NCBI GenBank assembly: GCA_030648295.1
Contig: JAUSID010000132.1
Location: 1 to 64,000 of the forward strand
Length of the DNA stretch: 64,000 bases
Source: Opitutaceae bacterium
GTDB taxonomy: Bacteria; Verrucomicrobiota; Verrucomicrobiia; Opitutales; Opitutaceae
Direction of reading: 5' to 3'
Shown here: piece by piece, positions 4,224 to 59,466 of the stretch
Layout of the letters: each line of letters begins with the position of its first letter
How positions within the stretch are numbered: the stretch's first letter is position 1
Translations under genes and position numbers: made by a program
Notes under the pieces: generated by a model
Database searches by the model: none
What the model was told of the DNA's origin: nothing
What the model saw: the letters and a program-made list of their open reading frames with translations, nothing else

Positions 4224-4500
4224 GGGCGGCGCGCGGAGGGGCGGAAGGGCAGAGGCACGGAGGCGCGGAGGGGCGGAGGAACGGAGGAACGGAGGGGCGG
4301 AGGAACGGAGGAACAGAGGGCAAATGCGCAGATGGTCGGATGGGCTGGCGGACCAAGGACCAAGGACCAAGGACCAAGGACCAAGGACCAAGGACCAAGG
4401 ACCAAGGACCAAGGACCAAAGACAACTGGTCATCTGCGCGCATCCTAACCACCGACCACCGACCACCGACCACTGACCATCTGCTCCTACGACCTTCGAC
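4224..4500. repeat. Intergenic tandem repeats: 8-mer, GGACCAA x10, GACCACC
   Basis: Three arrays stand back to back after the UDPGP stop. About 4240-4320 holds an imperfect 8-bp repeat (cggaggaa / cggagggg). 4350-4419 holds exactly ten perfect copies of the heptamer GGACCAA. About 4447-4479 holds four copies of gaccacc/gaccact. No gene is supported here. Confidence 0.9.
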
Positions 4501-22950: not shown

Positions 22951-23280
22951 CAATGGGGGAAGACACGGAAGACGCGGAAGACGCGGAAGAACGCGAGAGG
23001 GGGAAGATGGAGAAGAACGCGAGACGGGAAGATGCGGAAGAACGAGAGAAGCGGGAGAACGCGAGACGCGGAAGACTCGGAAAACGGCAGAAAGAAGAAA
23101 CGGCAGAAAGAAGAAACGAGGAGAAGACGGGGAGACGGGGAAGAACGCGAGAACGCGAGAATGCGAGACACGGAAGACTCGGAAAACGGCAGAAAGCTGG
23201 AAATCCCAAAGCCAGACGCGCCATTCGCCATTGCCCATTTGCCACCGTGGGGAGACGTGGAGGATTCGGAAGAGGCATAG
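22951..23280 (+). repeat. Purine-rich tract of GGAAGAC-type words
   Basis: About 300 bp of almost pure purine on the plus strand built from the words cggaagac, gaagaacgcgaga, gagacggggaagac, cggcagaaag in irregular tandem. It sits upstream of the beta-helix gene and mimics an open frame, but its translation is only charged low-complexity sequence. Its counterpart is the tract at 1262-1450. Confidence 0.75.
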
Positions 23281-23353: not shown

Positions 23354-24538
23354 ATGATGACCCGCCTCGTTTGTGCGTTTGCCTTATCGACTGCTTTTCT
23401 CGCCGCGGCGCAGCCCGCGACCCAATTCAACATTCAGGCTGCGATCAATGCGCTGCCGCCCACGGGCGGGGTGGTGCAAATTCCGGCCGGGACGTACGAG
23501 ATCACCACCCCGCTCCTTTTGGGAACCGGGGATGTGCGGCTCGAAGGTACTGGCTCGGCGACGCATATCATCAATCGCAATACGAGTGGCCAGCCGGCGC
23601 TCATTGTCCGGCACCCGGAGCTGGCGAAAAATCCGCGCGATCGGAAGGCGCGGCTCTGGCGCGTGACGCTCGCAAACTTTCGCGTGAGCGGGTCGAAGGA
23701 GAGCGGCGATGGGATTCGCGCCGAGGGGATTGATGAGATTTACCTGCACGGCGTCGCGGTCGATCATCACGGCGGCAACGGCATCGTCCTGAAGGATTGC
23801 TACGAGGATCCGCGGCTGGTGGGGAATATCATCACCTACAATGCCGCCGCCGGCGTGCTCCTGGAAATCTGCCACGACATCGTCGTCAGCGCGAACCAGT
23901 TCGAGGAAAACCAGGACGCGCTGCGCTGCCACGACAGCTTCAATCTCTGCATGACGGGCAACAACGTGGATGACCACCTGCGCCACGGCGTGGTGATTGA
24001 AAACACCTACGGCTCGATCGTCACCGGCAACATGATCGAGGAATGCAATGGCACGGCCATCATCCTCGATCGCGATTGCTATGGGATCACGGTGAGCGGA
24101 AACACGATTGCGCATCACCTCGGCGGGGGAGTGCACCTGCCTGATGCGTGGGGCTGCGCGATCACCGGCAACACCTTTCCGCTCGTACATGCGGACTCGA
24201 TCCGGGTGGGGCCGGCGAGCGGGCGGCTGACCATCTCCGGCAATAATTTCAGCAACAGCTTCATTGGCGGGAAGGACAAGCGGCCGCCGACGGGGAAGAC
24301 GCCGATGCAAACCGACGCGGGTACCGGCATCACGCTCGACGGCACGAGCGACATCGCGATCACGGGGAACACTTTCGGCGGGCTCACGACACCCGCGATC
24401 ACGGTGAAGAACGGCAGCCAGCGGCTGTTGATCACCAACAACGTGATCACGGACGTGAATCGTGGCGCGCCCGGCGCCAAGCCGATCGAAGCCGGCGGCG
24501 CGAAAGACAGCATCATCAAGGACAACATCGGCGGTTGA
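23354..24538 (+). CDS. Exported right-handed parallel beta-helix protein
   Basis: A 394-residue secreted protein. A signal peptide (MMTRLVCAFALSTAFLAAAQ) is followed by a pectate-lyase-like N-cap (FNIQAAINALPPTGGVVQIP, GTYEITTPLLL). Then come about ten PbH1/NosD-type coils with the recurrent turn 'sGN.I' (VSANQFEEN, MTGNNVDDH, VTGNMIEEC, VSGNTIAHH, ITGNTFPL, ISGNNFSNS, ITNNVITD). Such proteins bind or cleave polysaccharides or coat surfaces; no catalytic Arg or Asp cluster can be assigned confidently. I start at ATG 23354 because upstream sequence is repeat DNA. Confidence 0.85.
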   Translation: MMTRLVCAFALSTAFLAAAQPATQFNIQAAINALPPTGGVVQIPAGTYEITTPLLLGTGDVRLEGTGSATHIINRNTSGQPALIVRHPELAKNPRDRKARLWRVTLANFRVSGSKESGDGIRAEGIDEIYLHGVAVDHHGGNGIVLKDCYEDPRLVGNIITYNAAAGVLLEICHDIVVSANQFEENQDALRCHDSFNLCMTGNNVDDHLRHGVVIENTYGSIVTGNMIEECNGTAIILDRDCYGITVSGNTIAHHLGGGVHLPDAWGCAITGNTFPLVHADSIRVGPASGRLTISGNNFSNSFIGGKDKRPPTGKTPMQTDAGTGITLDGTSDIAITGNTFGGLTTPAITVKNGSQRLLITNNVITDVNRGAPGAKPIEAGGAKDSIIKDNIGG

Positions 24539-24539
24539 G

Positions 24540-24720
24540 TCTATTTCGGATTGCGGATTTTGGATTGCGGATTGCCTGGGAGCGCGGGCGTCAGTCGATT
24601 TCGGATTTCGGATCGCGGATTGCGGATTGCGCTGGGAGCGCGGGCGTCCCGCCCGCATGGATTGAAATGGCTGCGGCATCCCTTCGACAAGCTCAGGGCA
24701 GGCTCTGCCGCAGAGACATT
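24540..24720. repeat. Heptamer arrays plus GGGAGCGCG and REP-like words
   Basis: 24546-24573 and 24601-24628 are four-unit arrays of gcggatt/tcggatt (7 bp). Each is followed by ctgggagcgcgggcgtc, the second copy continuing into the palindromic complement cgcccgc. At 24684-24706 lies cccttcgacaagctcagggc, a REP-like word related to those at 3700-3805 and 45405-45440. Confidence 0.8.
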
Positions 24721-29316: not shown

Positions 29317-29700
29317 CGGCGAGGCGCCGTTCGAGGCTTTCGTTCGGCGCACCATCGAACGCATTCCTTATTTGGCGCCTCGCTGGGTTTTGGGTTCTGA
29401 GTTCTGGGTTCTGGGTTCTGGGTTCTGAGTTTTGAGTTCCCGGTTCGCAGCGATGTATGGAGCCGCGGCGCCCCGCCGCGGCCGTCCTGGGAGCGCGACC
29501 GCCCCGGTCGCAACAGCAACCATCCTGGGAGCGCGGGCGTCGGTTTGATTTCGGATTTCGGATTTCGGATTGCGGATTGCGGATTGCGGATCGCCCGGGA
29601 GCGCGGGCGGCTCGCCCGCAACTGCAGTACACGGAAACGCTATCGAAACTGCGGGCGGGACGCCCGCGCTCCCAGGAACGAGCCGGAGAAGACCTTCGGT
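29317..29700. repeat. Intergenic repeat cluster (CTGGGTT, GCGGATT, GGGAGCGCG)
   Basis: gcgaggcgcc (29319-29328) pairs with 29374-29383 just after the receptor stop and could form a cruciform or terminator-like stem. 29383-29438 is eight heptamers of ctgggtt/ctgagtt type. 29551-29592 is six heptamers tcggatt/gcggatt. gggagcgcg motif copies start at about 29488, 29526 and 29596, with an inverted copy at 29651-29677. No gene is seen. Confidence 0.85.
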
Positions 29701-47477: not shown

Positions 47478-50441
47478 TCACTCCCGTGCTGGAGCCACAA
47501 GCCCGGCGGGCTGCTCTTGGTCCGCCGCCTTCTTTTGTGGCCCGGCCGTGGCGCTTTGCGACTTCGCCTGCGGGACGACAATCACGCGGCTGGCGCGCGG
47601 CGCGGGAAAATATTTTTTCGCGAGCTCGGTGATTTCGGCCGTCGTGATGCTCTCGTTGTCCGAGTACCGCGAGCGCGCCCAGTCCAGCGCCTCCGGCCGT
47701 TCCTGGGCCCGCGCGAGCACATTGAAGAGCCAGTACTGGTTGGTCCGCGCGCTTTCCCGCAGGCTGGTCAAAACCGGTTTCCTGGCCCGTTCGAGCTCGT
47801 CCTCGGTGATGCCCTTCTCCGCCATTTCATGGGCGATGTTGACGATGATGTCGGCCACCTCCTTCGCCCGCGGCGGATCAATCGTCACGCTCGCCTGCAT
47901 GTATCCATAACCCGGATAGATGTCGCTGGCGGAGCTGCCGCTGCCCGGGCTGTACGCATCGCCCATTTCCTCCCGCACCTTGATCCGCATCCGGTCGTTG
48001 AAGACCTCGCTGAGCATGTTCAGCCGCCGCGCCCGCCGGATTTCGCGGCCATCGGTGGTCGGCCAGTAAAGCGCCACGGTGCCCTTGGGGATCTCCGTGT
48101 CGATTTGGTAGCTCTGGTCGATTGGCTGGGTCGGGAACCTCACCTGCCGCAGTTCATCGAGCGACGGCTTCGGGTCACGCTTGGGCAGCGCCCCGAAAGT
48201 GCGGGCCACCGCCGCAATCGTGGCATCGACATCCATGTCGCCGACGATCGCGATCTCGATCGCGCCGTGGGCCAGCTCGCCCGCCACCCATGTCTTCACC
48301 TCGTCGAGATTGCGCTTCAGCATTTCTTCCTTCGGCGGCAGCCCGAAGCGGTGGTCGCCGCTCGCGAGCAGCCGCGCGACCTCCAGCGTGAAGGGCCCGC
48401 TGGCGGTGTGGGCCAGACTGAGATACATCTGATCGATTCCCTTTCGCGCCTGCCGCGCCGCTTCGGGCCGGAATCCCGGATCGGTGATCCGCGCCGCCAT
48501 CAGCTGCAACTGGAGCAGGAGATCCTCGCGGTTGGTCGTGCCGTTGACGACGAAGGCGTCACCGGTCGAGCCAAAGCTCGCGCCGACCGTCCTGCCGGCG
48601 AGGATACGGCGCAGGTCGTCGGCGCTGTGCTGGCCGAGCCCGCCTTCATTGTAGGTCTGTCCGAGATAGAACGACAGCCCGCGCTGGTCGGCCGGTTCGG
48701 TCAGCTGCCCGGTGCCAAGCCGGATGAACAGGCGAATCCGGTTCGCCTCGAAATCGGTTTTCTTCAGGTTCAGCCGCACCCCGTTTTCGAAGCGCAGCAG
48801 CGTGATCCCAAGATCCTCGACCTGCTCGCGGTGGGCGACTTTTCCGAGCGCCCCGAAATCCGCGTAAGCCCAATCCGCATCGTTGATCGCCTCTCCCGGA
48901 CTGACGGGTGTGGCGCGCGACTTTTCGAAAACCGCGGTGATCGCCGCCTGCGCGGCCCGCGATTCGCTGCCCGCCTTGTCGCCGATCGCATCGCCCGGCG
49001 GAGCTTTGCCGGCATCCTTCGCGTCGCTTGAAATCTTCGCGTTGCCGGTGACCATCACGAGCCGGTGCTTCGGGCTCCAGGCCTCGCGCAACGACGCAAC
49101 GCAGTGCTCGACGGTGATTTTTTCCAGGGCCGGGCCATACAACGCCAGGTCTTCGTCGGGCGCGGTATACACGTTGCGATCAAGCAGGGTGTCGGTGATT
49201 TCGTCCGCGATTCCGTCGGATCGACGGGTGGCATAGGTCTTCACCGCCTGCTCGAGGCCGTTGCGAAAGTTGGCCACGACTTCTTTCAACTCGCCCGGCT
49301 GAAATCCGTGCTCCCGCGCCCGCCGCAGCTCCTGGTCCCCCACCGCAAGCGCCGCCTGCCATTGATCGGCGCGGCAGTTGAGCGCAATGGAGGTCATCCG
49401 GTAAAAATTATACCCCTCGCCGGCGCTGGCGCTGCCCCCGGTAAACGGCGCGTTCTCCTTCTTGGCCAGGATCGACAGGCGGCGGTTGATCATCGCGTTG
49501 GCAATCCGGCGCGGCAGGTACTTCAACTGGGTGGCCTTCGTATCCGGTTCCTTGGTATACGGCGTGATCGTGGAAATCGTGACGTTCGTGCTCGGCGCTT
49601 CCGACTCGTAATGATGAAACGTCTGCACGCCTTCGCGGGCCGCAATCCTGCCCAAGTCGGGCTTGGGCCGCCCGGGCCCGCGCGGCTTCAATCCCGAAAA
49701 CGCCTCGATCAACCTCTTTTCCATCGCGACCGGATCGATGTCGCCCACCACGACCACCGACATCAATTCCGGGCGATACCACGTGTTGTAGAAGTCGAGG
49801 AACTGGTCGCGTCCGGCAGTGGAGAGAATTTCGGTCGTACCAATCACGTCGCGTTCGGCGAATTTCGTGCCTCCGAGCAGGAACTTCTGGGTCGCGAGCC
49901 ACGTGCGGTAACCGACCGAGTCGCGCGTGCGCTTTTCGCTCAGGATGATGCCGCGCTCCTTGTTGATTTCCTCCGGCTTCAGCAGGAGCCCGCCCGCGTA
50001 ATCGATGAACACCTTCAAGCCTTCGCTCAGCGTCGTCTCCTTCGTGTCCGGCAGCTGGAGGAGGTAAAGTGTCCGCTGGTACCAGGTGCTGGCGTTGGTG
50101 TCGCCGCCGAAGTTCATTCCCATCCGCTGGAAAAATTCGATCAGCGTGTCAGGCGCAAAATTCTCGCTGCCGTTGAACGCCATGTGTTCGAGAAAATGCG
50201 CGAGCCCCTGCTGCTGGTCCGTCTCGTGAAGGGCGCCGGCCTCGACCAGCAGTCGCAGCGACACGCGCTCCTTCGGCTCCTTGTTTGGCCGGACGGCGTA
50301 GCGCATTCCATTCGGCAGTTTGCCGAATTTAATCAGCGGGTCCGGCTTGAGGTCGCTTTGCTCGTGCGGAAAGGGGATGGCCGCACCGTGCGTCGCGAGG
50401 GTGAACCAGGAACAGAACAGGAGAACGGCGAGGACACGCAT
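47478..50441 (-). CDS. Exported M16 family zinc protease
   Basis: A 987-residue periplasmic or surface insulinase-like protease. A signal peptide (MRVLAVLLFCSWFTLATHGA) is followed by an active M16 N-domain: the inverted zinc motif HFLEH (His82, Glu85, His86) and the third ligand Glu162 in NKERGIILSEKR. There are four M16 lobes; the C-terminal half (about 500-950) lacks a zinc motif, as usual. The last 40 residues are low complexity (QAKSQSATAGPQKKAADQEQ). I start at ATG 50441; the frame upstream codes only His/Phe/Ser repeats from pyrimidine-rich DNA. No Shine-Dalgarno is visible; see the leader feature. Confidence 0.92.
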   Translation of the reverse strand: MRVLAVLLFCSWFTLATHGAAIPFPHEQSDLKPDPLIKFGKLPNGMRYAVRPNKEPKERVSLRLLVEAGALHETDQQQGLAHFLEHMAFNGSENFAPDTLIEFFQRMGMNFGGDTNASTWYQRTLYLLQLPDTKETTLSEGLKVFIDYAGGLLLKPEEINKERGIILSEKRTRDSVGYRTWLATQKFLLGGTKFAERDVIGTTEILSTAGRDQFLDFYNTWYRPELMSVVVVGDIDPVAMEKRLIEAFSGLKPRGPGRPKPDLGRIAAREGVQTFHHYESEAPSTNVTISTITPYTKEPDTKATQLKYLPRRIANAMINRRLSILAKKENAPFTGGSASAGEGYNFYRMTSIALNCRADQWQAALAVGDQELRRAREHGFQPGELKEVVANFRNGLEQAVKTYATRRSDGIADEITDTLLDRNVYTAPDEDLALYGPALEKITVEHCVASLREAWSPKHRLVMVTGNAKISSDAKDAGKAPPGDAIGDKAGSESRAAQAAITAVFEKSRATPVSPGEAINDADWAYADFGALGKVAHREQVEDLGITLLRFENGVRLNLKKTDFEANRIRLFIRLGTGQLTEPADQRGLSFYLGQTYNEGGLGQHSADDLRRILAGRTVGASFGSTGDAFVVNGTTNREDLLLQLQLMAARITDPGFRPEAARQARKGIDQMYLSLAHTASGPFTLEVARLLASGDHRFGLPPKEEMLKRNLDEVKTWVAGELAHGAIEIAIVGDMDVDATIAAVARTFGALPKRDPKPSLDELRQVRFPTQPIDQSYQIDTEIPKGTVALYWPTTDGREIRRARRLNMLSEVFNDRMRIKVREEMGDAYSPGSGSSASDIYPGYGYMQASVTIDPPRAKEVADIIVNIAHEMAEKGITEDELERARKPVLTSLRESARTNQYWLFNVLARAQERPEALDWARSRYSDNESITTAEITELAKKYFPAPRASRVIVVPQAKSQSATAGPQKKAADQEQPAGLVAPARE

Positions 50442-50785
50442 GGTGAGGGAGTGAAAGGGAAAGGGAGAGTGAGAGTGAAAGTGAAAGTGCGGGTGGGCCA
50501 CAGAGTGAAAATGAAAGGGGATGGGGGCAGCCAATGCCATCGTGCAGAGCGAGGATGGACGAAGCCGTCCGTTTTGAGAATGAGAGTGAAAGGGTGACGA
50601 AACCGCTTAATTGCAACTTTCAACCGCACCGTCAGCCTGATGCCGGCGCCTGCCTGTCTCGTCCTGCTCTCAACGCCTGATTCCCTCACTCCCTCACACC
50701 TCATCATTCCCTCGCCGCCACTCTCCCTCTCACTTTCCCTTTCCCTTTCCCTTTCCCTTTCACTTTCCCTTTCACTCCCACTTTG
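50442..50785. promoter_or_regulatory. Divergent leader region with matching pyrimidine repeats
   Basis: The leaders of both divergent genes, each read in its own sense, end in almost the same pyrimidine repeat: ccctttccctttcactccct then caccATG for the M16 gene (50442-50490), and ccctttcactttcccttt then cactcccactttgATG for the Kdo transferase gene (50711-50785). The words are CCCTTT and CACTTT (6 bp). Neither gene has a purine Shine-Dalgarno site. The two tracts together form a large inverted repeat and a polypurine:polypyrimidine duplex. A role in S1-dependent translation or in DNA structure is inferred. Confidence 0.6.
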
Positions 50786-52111
50786 ATGCTTTGGGTTTAT
50801 CGGGTTTTTTTCCTGCCGGCGTTGCTCCTCATGGCACCACGGTATTTGTGGCGCATGTGGCGGCGTGGCGGTTATCGCCGTGACTTCGGCCACCGGCTCG
50901 GCGGCCATCCGGTGCTGCCGCCGAAACAGTCCGCGCATCCCCGAATCTGGCTCCAGGCAGTGAGTGTCGGCGAGATGCTCGCGATCGGCCCGATTCTCGA
51001 GGCGCTGCGCCGCGATGGCGTCGGAGTGTACCTCACCACCACCACGAGCACGGGCTACCGGCTCGCGAACGACCGTTATCGCGGGCTGACCGTCGGCATC
51101 GGGTACTTTCCGCTCGACTGGTGGCCGTTCGTCAGCCGCGCCTGGCGCCGGATTGCGCCTGACCTCGTGATTTTGACCGAGGGCGAACGCTGGCCCGAAC
51201 ATCTGCATCAGGCGTGCCGTCGCGGCGTGCCGGTCGTGAGCATCAACGCGCGGCTGTCCGATCGGAGCTACGCGCGGCTGAAGCGGTTCCGCCCTGCGGC
51301 GCGGCTGATGCTTGGCGGCGTCACCCGGCTGTTGACGGGCTCGGCCGCCGATGAATCGCGTTTTTTGGAACTCGGGATGGATCGCGCGAGTGTACAGACC
51401 ACCGGCAACATCAAACTCGACGTGCAAATTGCACCAGTGCCCGATGCAGAGCGCGTCTCGCTCCGGCGCGCGCTCGGACTGCCCGAGGGGTTAATCGTGC
51501 TCGGTTCGTCCACTTGGCCGGGCGAGGAAGAGGCGCTGGTCGACGTCTTGCGCGCCGCCCGCCAGAGCGGGATCGCGTGTTCGCTGCTGCTGGTTCCGCG
51601 GCACGCGGAGCGTCGCGGTGAAATCGAACGCCAGCTGCGCGGCTCCGAATTTCGCCACCATTTGCGTTCGCGCGGCGCCGCGGTGGGCGAGATCGATATC
51701 GCCGTCGCGGATACGACGGGAGAATTGCGCCGGCTGACGCAGCTGGCCGATCTCGTTTTTGTCGGCAAGAGCCTGCCCCCGCACACCGAGGGCCAGACGC
51801 CGGTCGAAGCCGCGGCGCTGCAAAAACCAATCCTGTTCGGACCCGGGATGAGCAACTTCCGGCTGCTGGCCGACGATTTGGTCGCGCGCGGTGCGGCGCT
51901 CCTCGTTCGCGATCGCGAACAACTCGTCGCGATGGCAACCGCGCTGCTCCGGGATCCGGCGCGGCGGCAGGAGTTGTCAGCGGCCGCGGCGCGCTGGCGG
52001 GTCGAAAACGCGGGCGCGGTCGAGCGGACCCTGCGGGTGATTCGCGACGAGTTGGCCCGGATCCGACCGGCGGCGGAGCCGGCCGCACCCGCGCAAGTTC
52101 GCGCGCGTTGA
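50786..52111 (+). CDS. waaA: 3-deoxy-D-manno-octulosonic acid (Kdo) transferase
   Basis: A 441-residue membrane-associated GT-B glycosyltransferase that adds Kdo to lipid A precursor, at the inner membrane. An N-terminal anchor helix (MLWVYRVFFLPALLLMAPRY) is followed by WLQAVSVGEMLAIGPILEAL with the catalytic Glu (E63), YFPLDWWPFVSRAWRR, LTEGERWPEHLHQACRRGVP, GNIKLDV, and GEEEALVDVLRAAR in the C-domain, ending with HTEGQTPVEAAALQKPILFG (donor-binding). It shows that the organism makes LPS. ATG 50786 is preferred to the overlapping TTG at 50783. A large hairpin repeat lies 106 bp downstream. Confidence 0.93.
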   Translation: MLWVYRVFFLPALLLMAPRYLWRMWRRGGYRRDFGHRLGGHPVLPPKQSAHPRIWLQAVSVGEMLAIGPILEALRRDGVGVYLTTTTSTGYRLANDRYRGLTVGIGYFPLDWWPFVSRAWRRIAPDLVILTEGERWPEHLHQACRRGVPVVSINARLSDRSYARLKRFRPAARLMLGGVTRLLTGSAADESRFLELGMDRASVQTTGNIKLDVQIAPVPDAERVSLRRALGLPEGLIVLGSSTWPGEEEALVDVLRAARQSGIACSLLLVPRHAERRGEIERQLRGSEFRHHLRSRGAAVGEIDIAVADTTGELRRLTQLADLVFVGKSLPPHTEGQTPVEAAALQKPILFGPGMSNFRLLADDLVARGAALLVRDREQLVAMATALLRDPARRQELSAAAARWRVENAGAVERTLRVIRDELARIRPAAEPAAPAQVRAR

Positions 52112-59066: not shown

Positions 59067-59466
59067 GAATTTCGGATTTCGGATTTCGGAAAACGGATTT
59101 CGGAAAACGGATACCGGAGCGCGGAAGCCAGAAGCCAGAGGACAGAGGCCAGAGGCCAGAGGACAGAGGACTGAGGACTGAGGACTGAGGACTGAGGACT
59201 GAGGACTGAGGACTGAGGTCAGAGGTCAGAGGTCAGAGGTCAGAGGTCAGAGGTCAGAGGTCAGAGGTCAGAGGTCAGAGGTCAGAGGTCAGAGGTCAGA
59301 GGTCAGAGGTCAGAGGTCAGAGGTCAGAGGTTTTGAAAATCCGCAATCCGAAATCCGCAATCCGAAATCGACCGGCGTCCGCAATTCGAAATCGGAAACT
59401 CCGAGTGCCGGTATCCGGTTTCCGAAATCGACAGAACCCGAAACCCGAAACCCGAAACGCAAAACC
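59067..59466. repeat. 400-bp repeat region with 29 uninterrupted heptamers
   Basis: 59067-59110: tcggatt-type words. From 59126 to 59328 the 7-bp phase is unbroken while the unit drifts: gaagcca x2, gaggaca, gaggcca x2, gaggaca, then ggactga x7 (59168-59216) and ggtcaga x16 (59217-59328). 59338-59366: aatccgc/aatccga heptamers, complementary in sense to the tcggatt block at the left edge. 59435-59465: aacccga heptamers. No gene is present. Confidence 0.92.

Follow-up and report, generated by a model that had tools for sequence, protein, structure and literature searches.

The two pyrimidine-rich tracts that precede the divergent genes for an M16 protease and a 3-deoxy-D-manno-octulosonic acid (Kdo) transferase are real, and they are one local case of gene-edge repeat arrays, not a special switch of this gene pair. 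They are best filed as an Opitutaceae variant of the repeat arrays that occur at ORF edges, in a genome without an excess of Shine-Dalgarno (SD) sites. The explanation that we prefer, with a probability of somewhat under 60%, is that expanding intergenic arrays have been retained where their orientation gives the gene a pyrimidine-rich leader for initiation that is independent of SD sites. The locus lies in the window, by which we mean the whole stretch of 64,000 nucleotides that was analysed, and which is part of a 9.12-Mb draft assembly of 294 contigs.

Positions 50442-50785 (344 nt) are the exact interval between the starts of the two divergent genes. The identities given for these genes in the original prediction were borne out by Pfam, with PF00675/PF05193 for the M16 protease and PF04413 for the Kdo transferase. 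The M16 frame stays open upstream to an ATG at 50540, and the start at 50441 gives, by eye, a signal-peptide-like N-terminus. The locus is composed as follows.

47478-50441, minus strand: M16 (insulinase-type) protease gene (gene calls, Pfam, and starts of the divergent genes of relatives compared by eye).
50445-50489, minus strand: M16-side array of the words CACTTT, CACTCT and CCCTTT, pyrimidine on the M16 mRNA strand, with period 6 at 50450-50489 (TRF).
50503-50526 and 50578-50601, minus strand: weaker patches of the M16-side array words, farther from the M16 start (repeat family comparison).
50602-50679, no strand: non-repetitive middle of the spacer (sequence reading).
50680-50703, plus strand: short run of CTCACTCC-type octamer words (sequence reading; similarity to other spacers covers it).
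50721-50779, plus strand: waaA-side array, pyrimidine on the waaA mRNA strand, with period 6 at 50724-50773 (TRF).
50730-50764, plus strand: perfect mirror repeat of 35 nt inside the waaA-side array (mirror-repeat search).
50737-50757, opposite strand: G-quadruplex motif inside the waaA-side array, arising from (CCCTTT)3CCC (motif search).
50786-52111, plus strand: Kdo transferase gene, waaA/kdtA type (gene calls, Pfam).

The presence of a pyrimidine array directly before both start codons was confirmed, and the arrays are non-random: the run 50721-50779 reached a pyrimidine score of 44, and none of 30 Markov shuffles of the window exceeded 21. The two leaders were also said to end almost alike, and by eye a 17-mer, CTTTCCCTTTCACTCCC, is indeed common to both, stopping 5 nt before the ATG of the M16 gene and 6 nt before that of waaA. 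Both of the tracts described as 50-75 nt long are present, but the dense M16-side array measures only about 45 nt, with the weaker patches lying farther off. Similarly, the predicted very large inverted repeat exists but is imperfect, with an identity of 88% over 34 nt, 83% over 40-nt arms and 75% over 61 nt, and with 211-235 nt separating the arms. Because both arms are arrays of the same CACTTT/CCCTTT words facing apart, this imperfect repeat needs no separate explanation. No sigma-70-like site was found in 50380-50860, and the same interval held one terminator-like site, on the minus strand, as compared to 0.5 expected. The promoters of both genes might sit in the middle of the spacer at 50602-50679. 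A search for known RNA families in 50200-51000 returned a lone sub-threshold match to a human-type microRNA (E 0.068; 22 bits, the gathering score being 82), which was taken as chance.

The same leader was found before other genes of the genome, and the tracts are thus not specific to the M16/waaA pair. With one mismatch allowed, the pattern (CMCYTT)3 gave 124 matches in the 9.12-Mb assembly, neighbouring matches overlapping, and a GTCTTCC array pattern gave 142, with 0 for its reversed control. The reversed pattern is a valid control for GTCTTCC and useless for the hexamer, because arrays of CACTTT and CCCTTT are identical when read backwards. The word families present in this one genome, of 6-9 nt, include CACTTT, GTCTTCC(N), GTCCCTT(N), CTCACTCC and CTGCTCC, among others.

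Gene edges were analysed in 1.50 Mb of sampled DNA, consisting of 805,520 bp from eight hexamer-bearing contigs and 697,732 bp from further contigs; some of the latter were picked for their tracts, and more than half of all sampled bases lie on hexamer-selected contigs. Genes were called with our own codon-score finder script and not taken from an annotation. Tried on 50 kb of E. coli K-12, this script recovered 36 of 42 annotated stops, and for 29 of these 36 genes the annotated start as well. In total 108 strong pyrimidine/purine tracts were detected in the sample. The 0.81-Mb part contained 69 tracts (score at least 26), as compared to 0, 1 and 0 in three Markov shuffles, and 54 of the 69 did not lie mainly inside a called gene (52 with a retrained caller). 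One tract only was held by 85 of the 112 tract-bearing spacers.

The tracts near genes were found to differ markedly in strand between the two gene ends. Of the 108, 70 are no more than 60 nt from the nearest gene edge, and 38 are farther away. Read in mRNA sense, the edge tracts comprised 32 pyrimidine (Y) and 1 purine (R) tracts at 5' ends, and 8 Y and 29 R tracts at 3' ends (Fisher p 2.6e-11; 1.50 Mb). Where the leader gap was 60 nt or more, the last 100 nt contained a Y tract in 38/613 leaders and an R tract in 2/613, and among tails an R tract was present in 26/581 and a Y tract in 11/581. In spacers with a single tract, 70 of 85 fit this strand rule and 15 do not. A G-quadruplex motif was found in 11 of the 32 pyrimidine tracts at 5' ends and was absent from 21. 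The tracts without such a motif gave 21 Y and 1 R at 5' ends, and 7 Y and 24 R at 3' ends, so a G-quadruplex is not needed for the rule.

These motif-free counts and the edge counts of the 108 tracts include a CTCTTTCTC hairpin family, which was left out, post hoc, of the strictly intergenic counts and of the purity-gradient test given below. At 5' ends, strictly intergenic tracts beside strong genes were all Y (16, as compared to 0 R), and at 3' ends there were 3 R and 2 Y. Since the 3' counts shrink in this way, much of the 3' purine signal overlaps purine-rich coding ends. The strand bias of the arrays is firm at the start-codon side and weaker at the stop-codon side. In 400-kb stretches of two other genomes the edge counts (5'Y, 5'R, 3'Y, 3'R) were 11, 2, 4 and 5 for G003, and 3, 1, 0 and 8 for G015. 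The leaders of G003 gave a weak signal (5 Y and 3 R of 175) and its tails went against the rule (8 Y and 4 R of 157); the leaders of G015 showed little signal (2 Y and 1 R of 132), and its tails held 2 Y and 4 R tracts of 122.

Both leaders of the pair are pyrimidine-rich and without an SD site. The statement that the tracts stand instead of SD sites was in that sense true, but it is uninformative, as SD-like 4-mers were at background across the sampled genes. The 16S rRNA 3' end was looked for in the assembly and not found. The SD-like 4-mers GGAG, GAGG and AGGA occurred at positions -20 to -4 in 82 of 839 genes of our own calls, and at the control position in 73 (43/460 versus 38 and 39/379 versus 35 in the two gene sets). 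The corresponding values were 16 versus 29 of 236 in G003 and 24 versus 28 of 200 in G015, and 24/42 versus 6/42 at annotated starts of E. coli. In the first set, the 300 leaders whose gap is 100 nt or longer are 62% pyrimidine at positions -10 to -1, and one 588-aa frame of the genome holds six S1 domains. A pyrimidine leader instead of an SD site is a description of the whole genome, with M16 and waaA as its extreme form. The proposal of an S1-recruiting leader stands in this general form, given the lack of an SD excess, the pyrimidine-leaning leaders, the frame with six S1 domains and the arrays at starts that are almost always Y. As judged from sequence, use of S1 at the M16 and waaA leaders themselves is possible.

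The 101-nt pieces around the two starts are predicted to fold weakly, with -3.0 and -4.9 kcal/mol, and 164/200 and 37/200 of the shuffles, respectively, fold at least as well. In a 146-nt piece (50660-50805; -10.7 kcal/mol, z 0.19) the waaA start region is predicted to pair with the distal leader, which weakens the notion of an unstructured leader as part of our preferred explanation. Neither the 101-nt nor the 146-nt predicted folds beat shuffles. SD-scarce Verrucomicrobiota are already in print (PMC10783764), and in the available part of that paper they resemble our genome in having no SD before the start codon. The paper concerns SD usage and not tandem arrays, and the word stem 'Opitut-' does not occur in its main text.

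We propose that the divergent gene pair is old, that its spacer has been filled and made longer by lineage-specific simple-repeat arrays, and that the two tracts are members of a population of intergenic arrays, with words of 6-9 nt, that extends over the genome. Slippage is the probable origin of such arrays, together with copying inside a spacer, sometimes inverted, as suggested by the words that arms of the same spacer have in common. They would mostly persist where the pyrimidine strand runs into the adjacent gene. Before a start codon this orientation would leave a pyrimidine-rich, SD-free leader, and from this we infer a filter, in that such a leader would suit a genome that initiates without SD pairing, perhaps assisted by the six-domain S1-type protein. 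The arrays would then be tolerated or mildly useful leaders and not a dedicated regulator of M16 and waaA. A translation filter at starts alone does not account for the purine tails.

The conservation of the leader was assessed at the loci of the 80 best named WaaA relatives, all draft genomes, many of them filed as Opitutaceae, Opitutae or Opitutus and others only as Verrucomicrobia. Enough upstream DNA was available for 103 loci from two overlapping sets, in which some genomes are counted twice, and a divergent M16 gene was present in 65 of them. The median spacer was 148 nt, as compared to 344 nt in the window. Most of the loci with the divergent pair lack a tract, which is largely the outcome that the original prediction itself had named as refuting it. 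Among the 65 loci, a pyrimidine score of at least 22 was reached only by the locus in the window and by L031, L025, L126 and L152. Of these, L031 (G003) has related words in a 493-nt spacer, L025 and L126 are one genome (G024) with CTTCCTT words in a 516-nt spacer, and L152 reaches the score through a misplaced spacer end. Within 300 nt upstream of waaA, a long tract was found in L126 alone among the 80 named loci. The tract is not a conserved part of the divergent M16/waaA pair and, judging from these loci, would appear to be recent. The exact hexamer pattern occurs in 9/27 genomes of the genus and the GTCTTCC pattern in 3/27, and in a sample of the phylum three copies of CACTTT were found in 4/288 genomes and GTCTTCC in 7/288. 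G185, from another genus of the family, holds array words of both the GTCTTCC and the CACTTT kind, and this vocabulary thus recurs across genera.

The most specific reading of the locus is that the shared tract recruits S1 or another regulator, and in this way coordinates the M16 protease with the transfer of Kdo to lipid A. The 17-mer near both ATGs, the weak folding of the short pieces around the starts and the six-S1-domain protein encoded in the genome would all fit such a dedicated pair of leaders. However, the same words stand before unrelated genes. Hexamer words occur in the pyrimidine-rich leaders of 14 genes called in the sampled DNA, and the functions of 12 of these genes (the two of the window and ten others by Pfam) are unrelated; they include TatC, O6-methylguanine-DNA methyltransferase, an EF-Tu-type GTPase, a racemase, an aldolase and an ABC ATPase. 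This argues against a coordination of envelope functions, as does the finding that the pair mostly occurs without the tract in relatives. A clear tract was limited to the species of the window, G003 and G024 among the 65 loci, and the word of G024 is a different one. We regard this coordination as the least probable of the readings considered.

The strand rule could also follow from a palindromic, REP-like or MITE-like element inserting into spacers, whose symmetry would place purine left and pyrimidine right on either strand. Neighbouring tracts within spacers indeed formed 19 purine-then-pyrimidine pairs and 7 of the reverse order, all 7 being, by inspection, of a separate CTCTTTCTC...GAGAAAGAG hairpin family. 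Arms of one spacer also have words in common: the 19 pairs shared 12.1 six-mers between arms, as compared to 6.1 across spacers (0/2000 permutations), which makes local inverted copying likely for some arm pairs. However, the single-tract spacers obey the same rule, some of the pairs have unlike words on their two arms, and where the window spacer best resembles its seven partner spacers, the similarity lies in the array stretches, with no such match in the middle. An inserting element is therefore unlikely. Somewhat less probable still is a DNA-structure element, by which the waaA-side arm would influence the transcription of both genes as an H-DNA triplex or as a G-quadruplex/i-motif. No mirror repeat in the window is longer than that of this arm, which has two interrupting A; the sequence (CCCTTT)3CCC creates a G-quadruplex motif in the complementary strand; and repeats of Xanthomonas and Nostoc form quadruplexes in vitro according to the accessible part of PMC4692102. 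Triplex DNA at the waaA-side arm, as raised in the original prediction, is possible in view of the mirror repeat. The M16-side leader, however, has no such motif, nor do most pyrimidine tracts at start codons, and the strand rule holds regardless.

Directional growth, in which arrays creep toward the 3' end of the pyrimidine strand until an ORF halts them, would account for the orientation independence at both gene ends and for the similar rule in Xanthomonas and Nostoc (PMC4692102, as far as available). It predicts a purer gene-facing end, whereas no purity gradient was seen (0.608 versus 0.594, p 0.33, n 68), and the candidate was rejected as very improbable. A fixed order of the word families along the pyrimidine strand was also dropped. 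It looked strong by match counts but rested on very few independent spacers, with octamer-hexamer order at 2 to 1 and another pair at 0 to 1.

Having weighed these alternatives, we return to arrays retained by orientation and compare them with known systems. No report of such arrays in Opitutaceae or Verrucomicrobia was found in the open-licence literature. The repeats of Xanthomonas and Nostoc, as described in the part of PMC4692102 available to us, are the heptamers GGGAATC and GGGGA(C/T)T. They lie within 0-50 bp of ORFs of any orientation, with the G-rich strand non-coding upstream and coding downstream. The heptamers stand near the 5' neighbouring ORF, downstream arrays overlap stop codons, and the strand rule is discussed there together with G-quadruplexes. 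Common to that system and ours are intergenic tandem arrays that hug ORFs of no functional class, an array length that differs between relatives, and the strand rule, the 3' part of which is unsupported here once coding overlap is excluded (the 3 R and 2 Y tracts above). The unit differs, being 6 nt here, with other families using other words of 6-9 nt, as compared to a heptamer there. Unlike that system, ours has several word families in one genome, sometimes inverted arm pairs, no SD excess and, in most edge tracts, no G-quadruplex motif. The Xanthomonas repeats are reported to be under-represented between divergent ORFs, whereas the array in the window lies between divergent ORFs (comparisons limited to the same part of PMC4692102).

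The TAACTGA direct repeats of marine Beggiatoaceae immediately precede start codons, and S1 has been named as a possible binder (PMC4679880, in part). As in our genome, the arrays are short, lie within several nt of starts, are mostly of one orientation and show no gene-function pattern. They differ in consisting of a single word that is not pyrimidine-rich, a regulatory network has been proposed for them, and by the criterion of that paper an SD precedes about 25% of the genes in those bacteria. Surveys of triplex and other DNA structures are also available (PMC4666352 and PMC4060949, both in part), and in the latter oligopurine/mirror patterns are over-represented in Nostoc and, among Verrucomicrobia, in Methylacidiphilum.

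New in the present genome are the several word families and the strand rule for tracts without a G-quadruplex motif; the latter narrows the explanations as compared to the quadruplex discussion for Xanthomonas and Nostoc. A curiosity of one locus thus becomes a measurable rule of a genome without SD excess, namely that an array at a start codon has its pyrimidines on the mRNA strand, and it serves as a warning that lone pyrimidine leaders should not be taken for regulators. We tentatively raise the idea, which we hold to be possible but rather unlikely, that unrelated words in unrelated phyla obey one edge rule, with the pyrimidine strand running into the gene at either end, and that neither G-quadruplexes nor a single element family explains it. 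If so, a general undescribed process would orient the growth or survival of arrays at ORF boundaries, and SD-free leaders would be one visible outcome.

Additionally, the intergenic DNA of this genome was found to be very repeat-rich. The sampled 1.50 Mb has 672 spacers that measure at least 60 nt, and 316 of them share a BLAST-detectable stretch with another spacer (E up to 1e-8, unmasked), and a dispersed intergenic family, GTCATTCTGAGG...CCTCAGAATGAC, is among the shared stretches. The intergenic hairpin family CTCTTTCTC/TTAATC...GAGAAAGAG, with pyrimidine left and purine right, accounts for 7 pairs in 1.50 Mb, located on contigs C245, C11, C142 (two), C96, C19 (L234) and C17 of G000; its loops measure 14-21 nt in 5 of the 7, and 3 and 60 nt in the other two. 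In the window itself, the heptamer CAGAGGT is repeated 28 times (97% match) at 59136-59331, and heptamer arrays of the ATTTCGG and AAATCCG types flank this stretch. Further arrays are GGACCAA x10.6 (4350-4423), GGAAGACGC (22955-23203), GATTTCGGATTGCG (24538-24648) and CTGGGTT (29383-29591). In waaA spacers of relatives (for example L019, L020, L024 and L099) an inverted motif, GCGCAAA(A)GAAAA ... TTTTCTTTGCGCC, was seen by eye between the divergent genes. This motif is possibly an ancestral operator or promoter that was replaced by the arrays; a pattern for its right half matched 12 of the 65 loci (some genomes twice), the species of the window not being among them.
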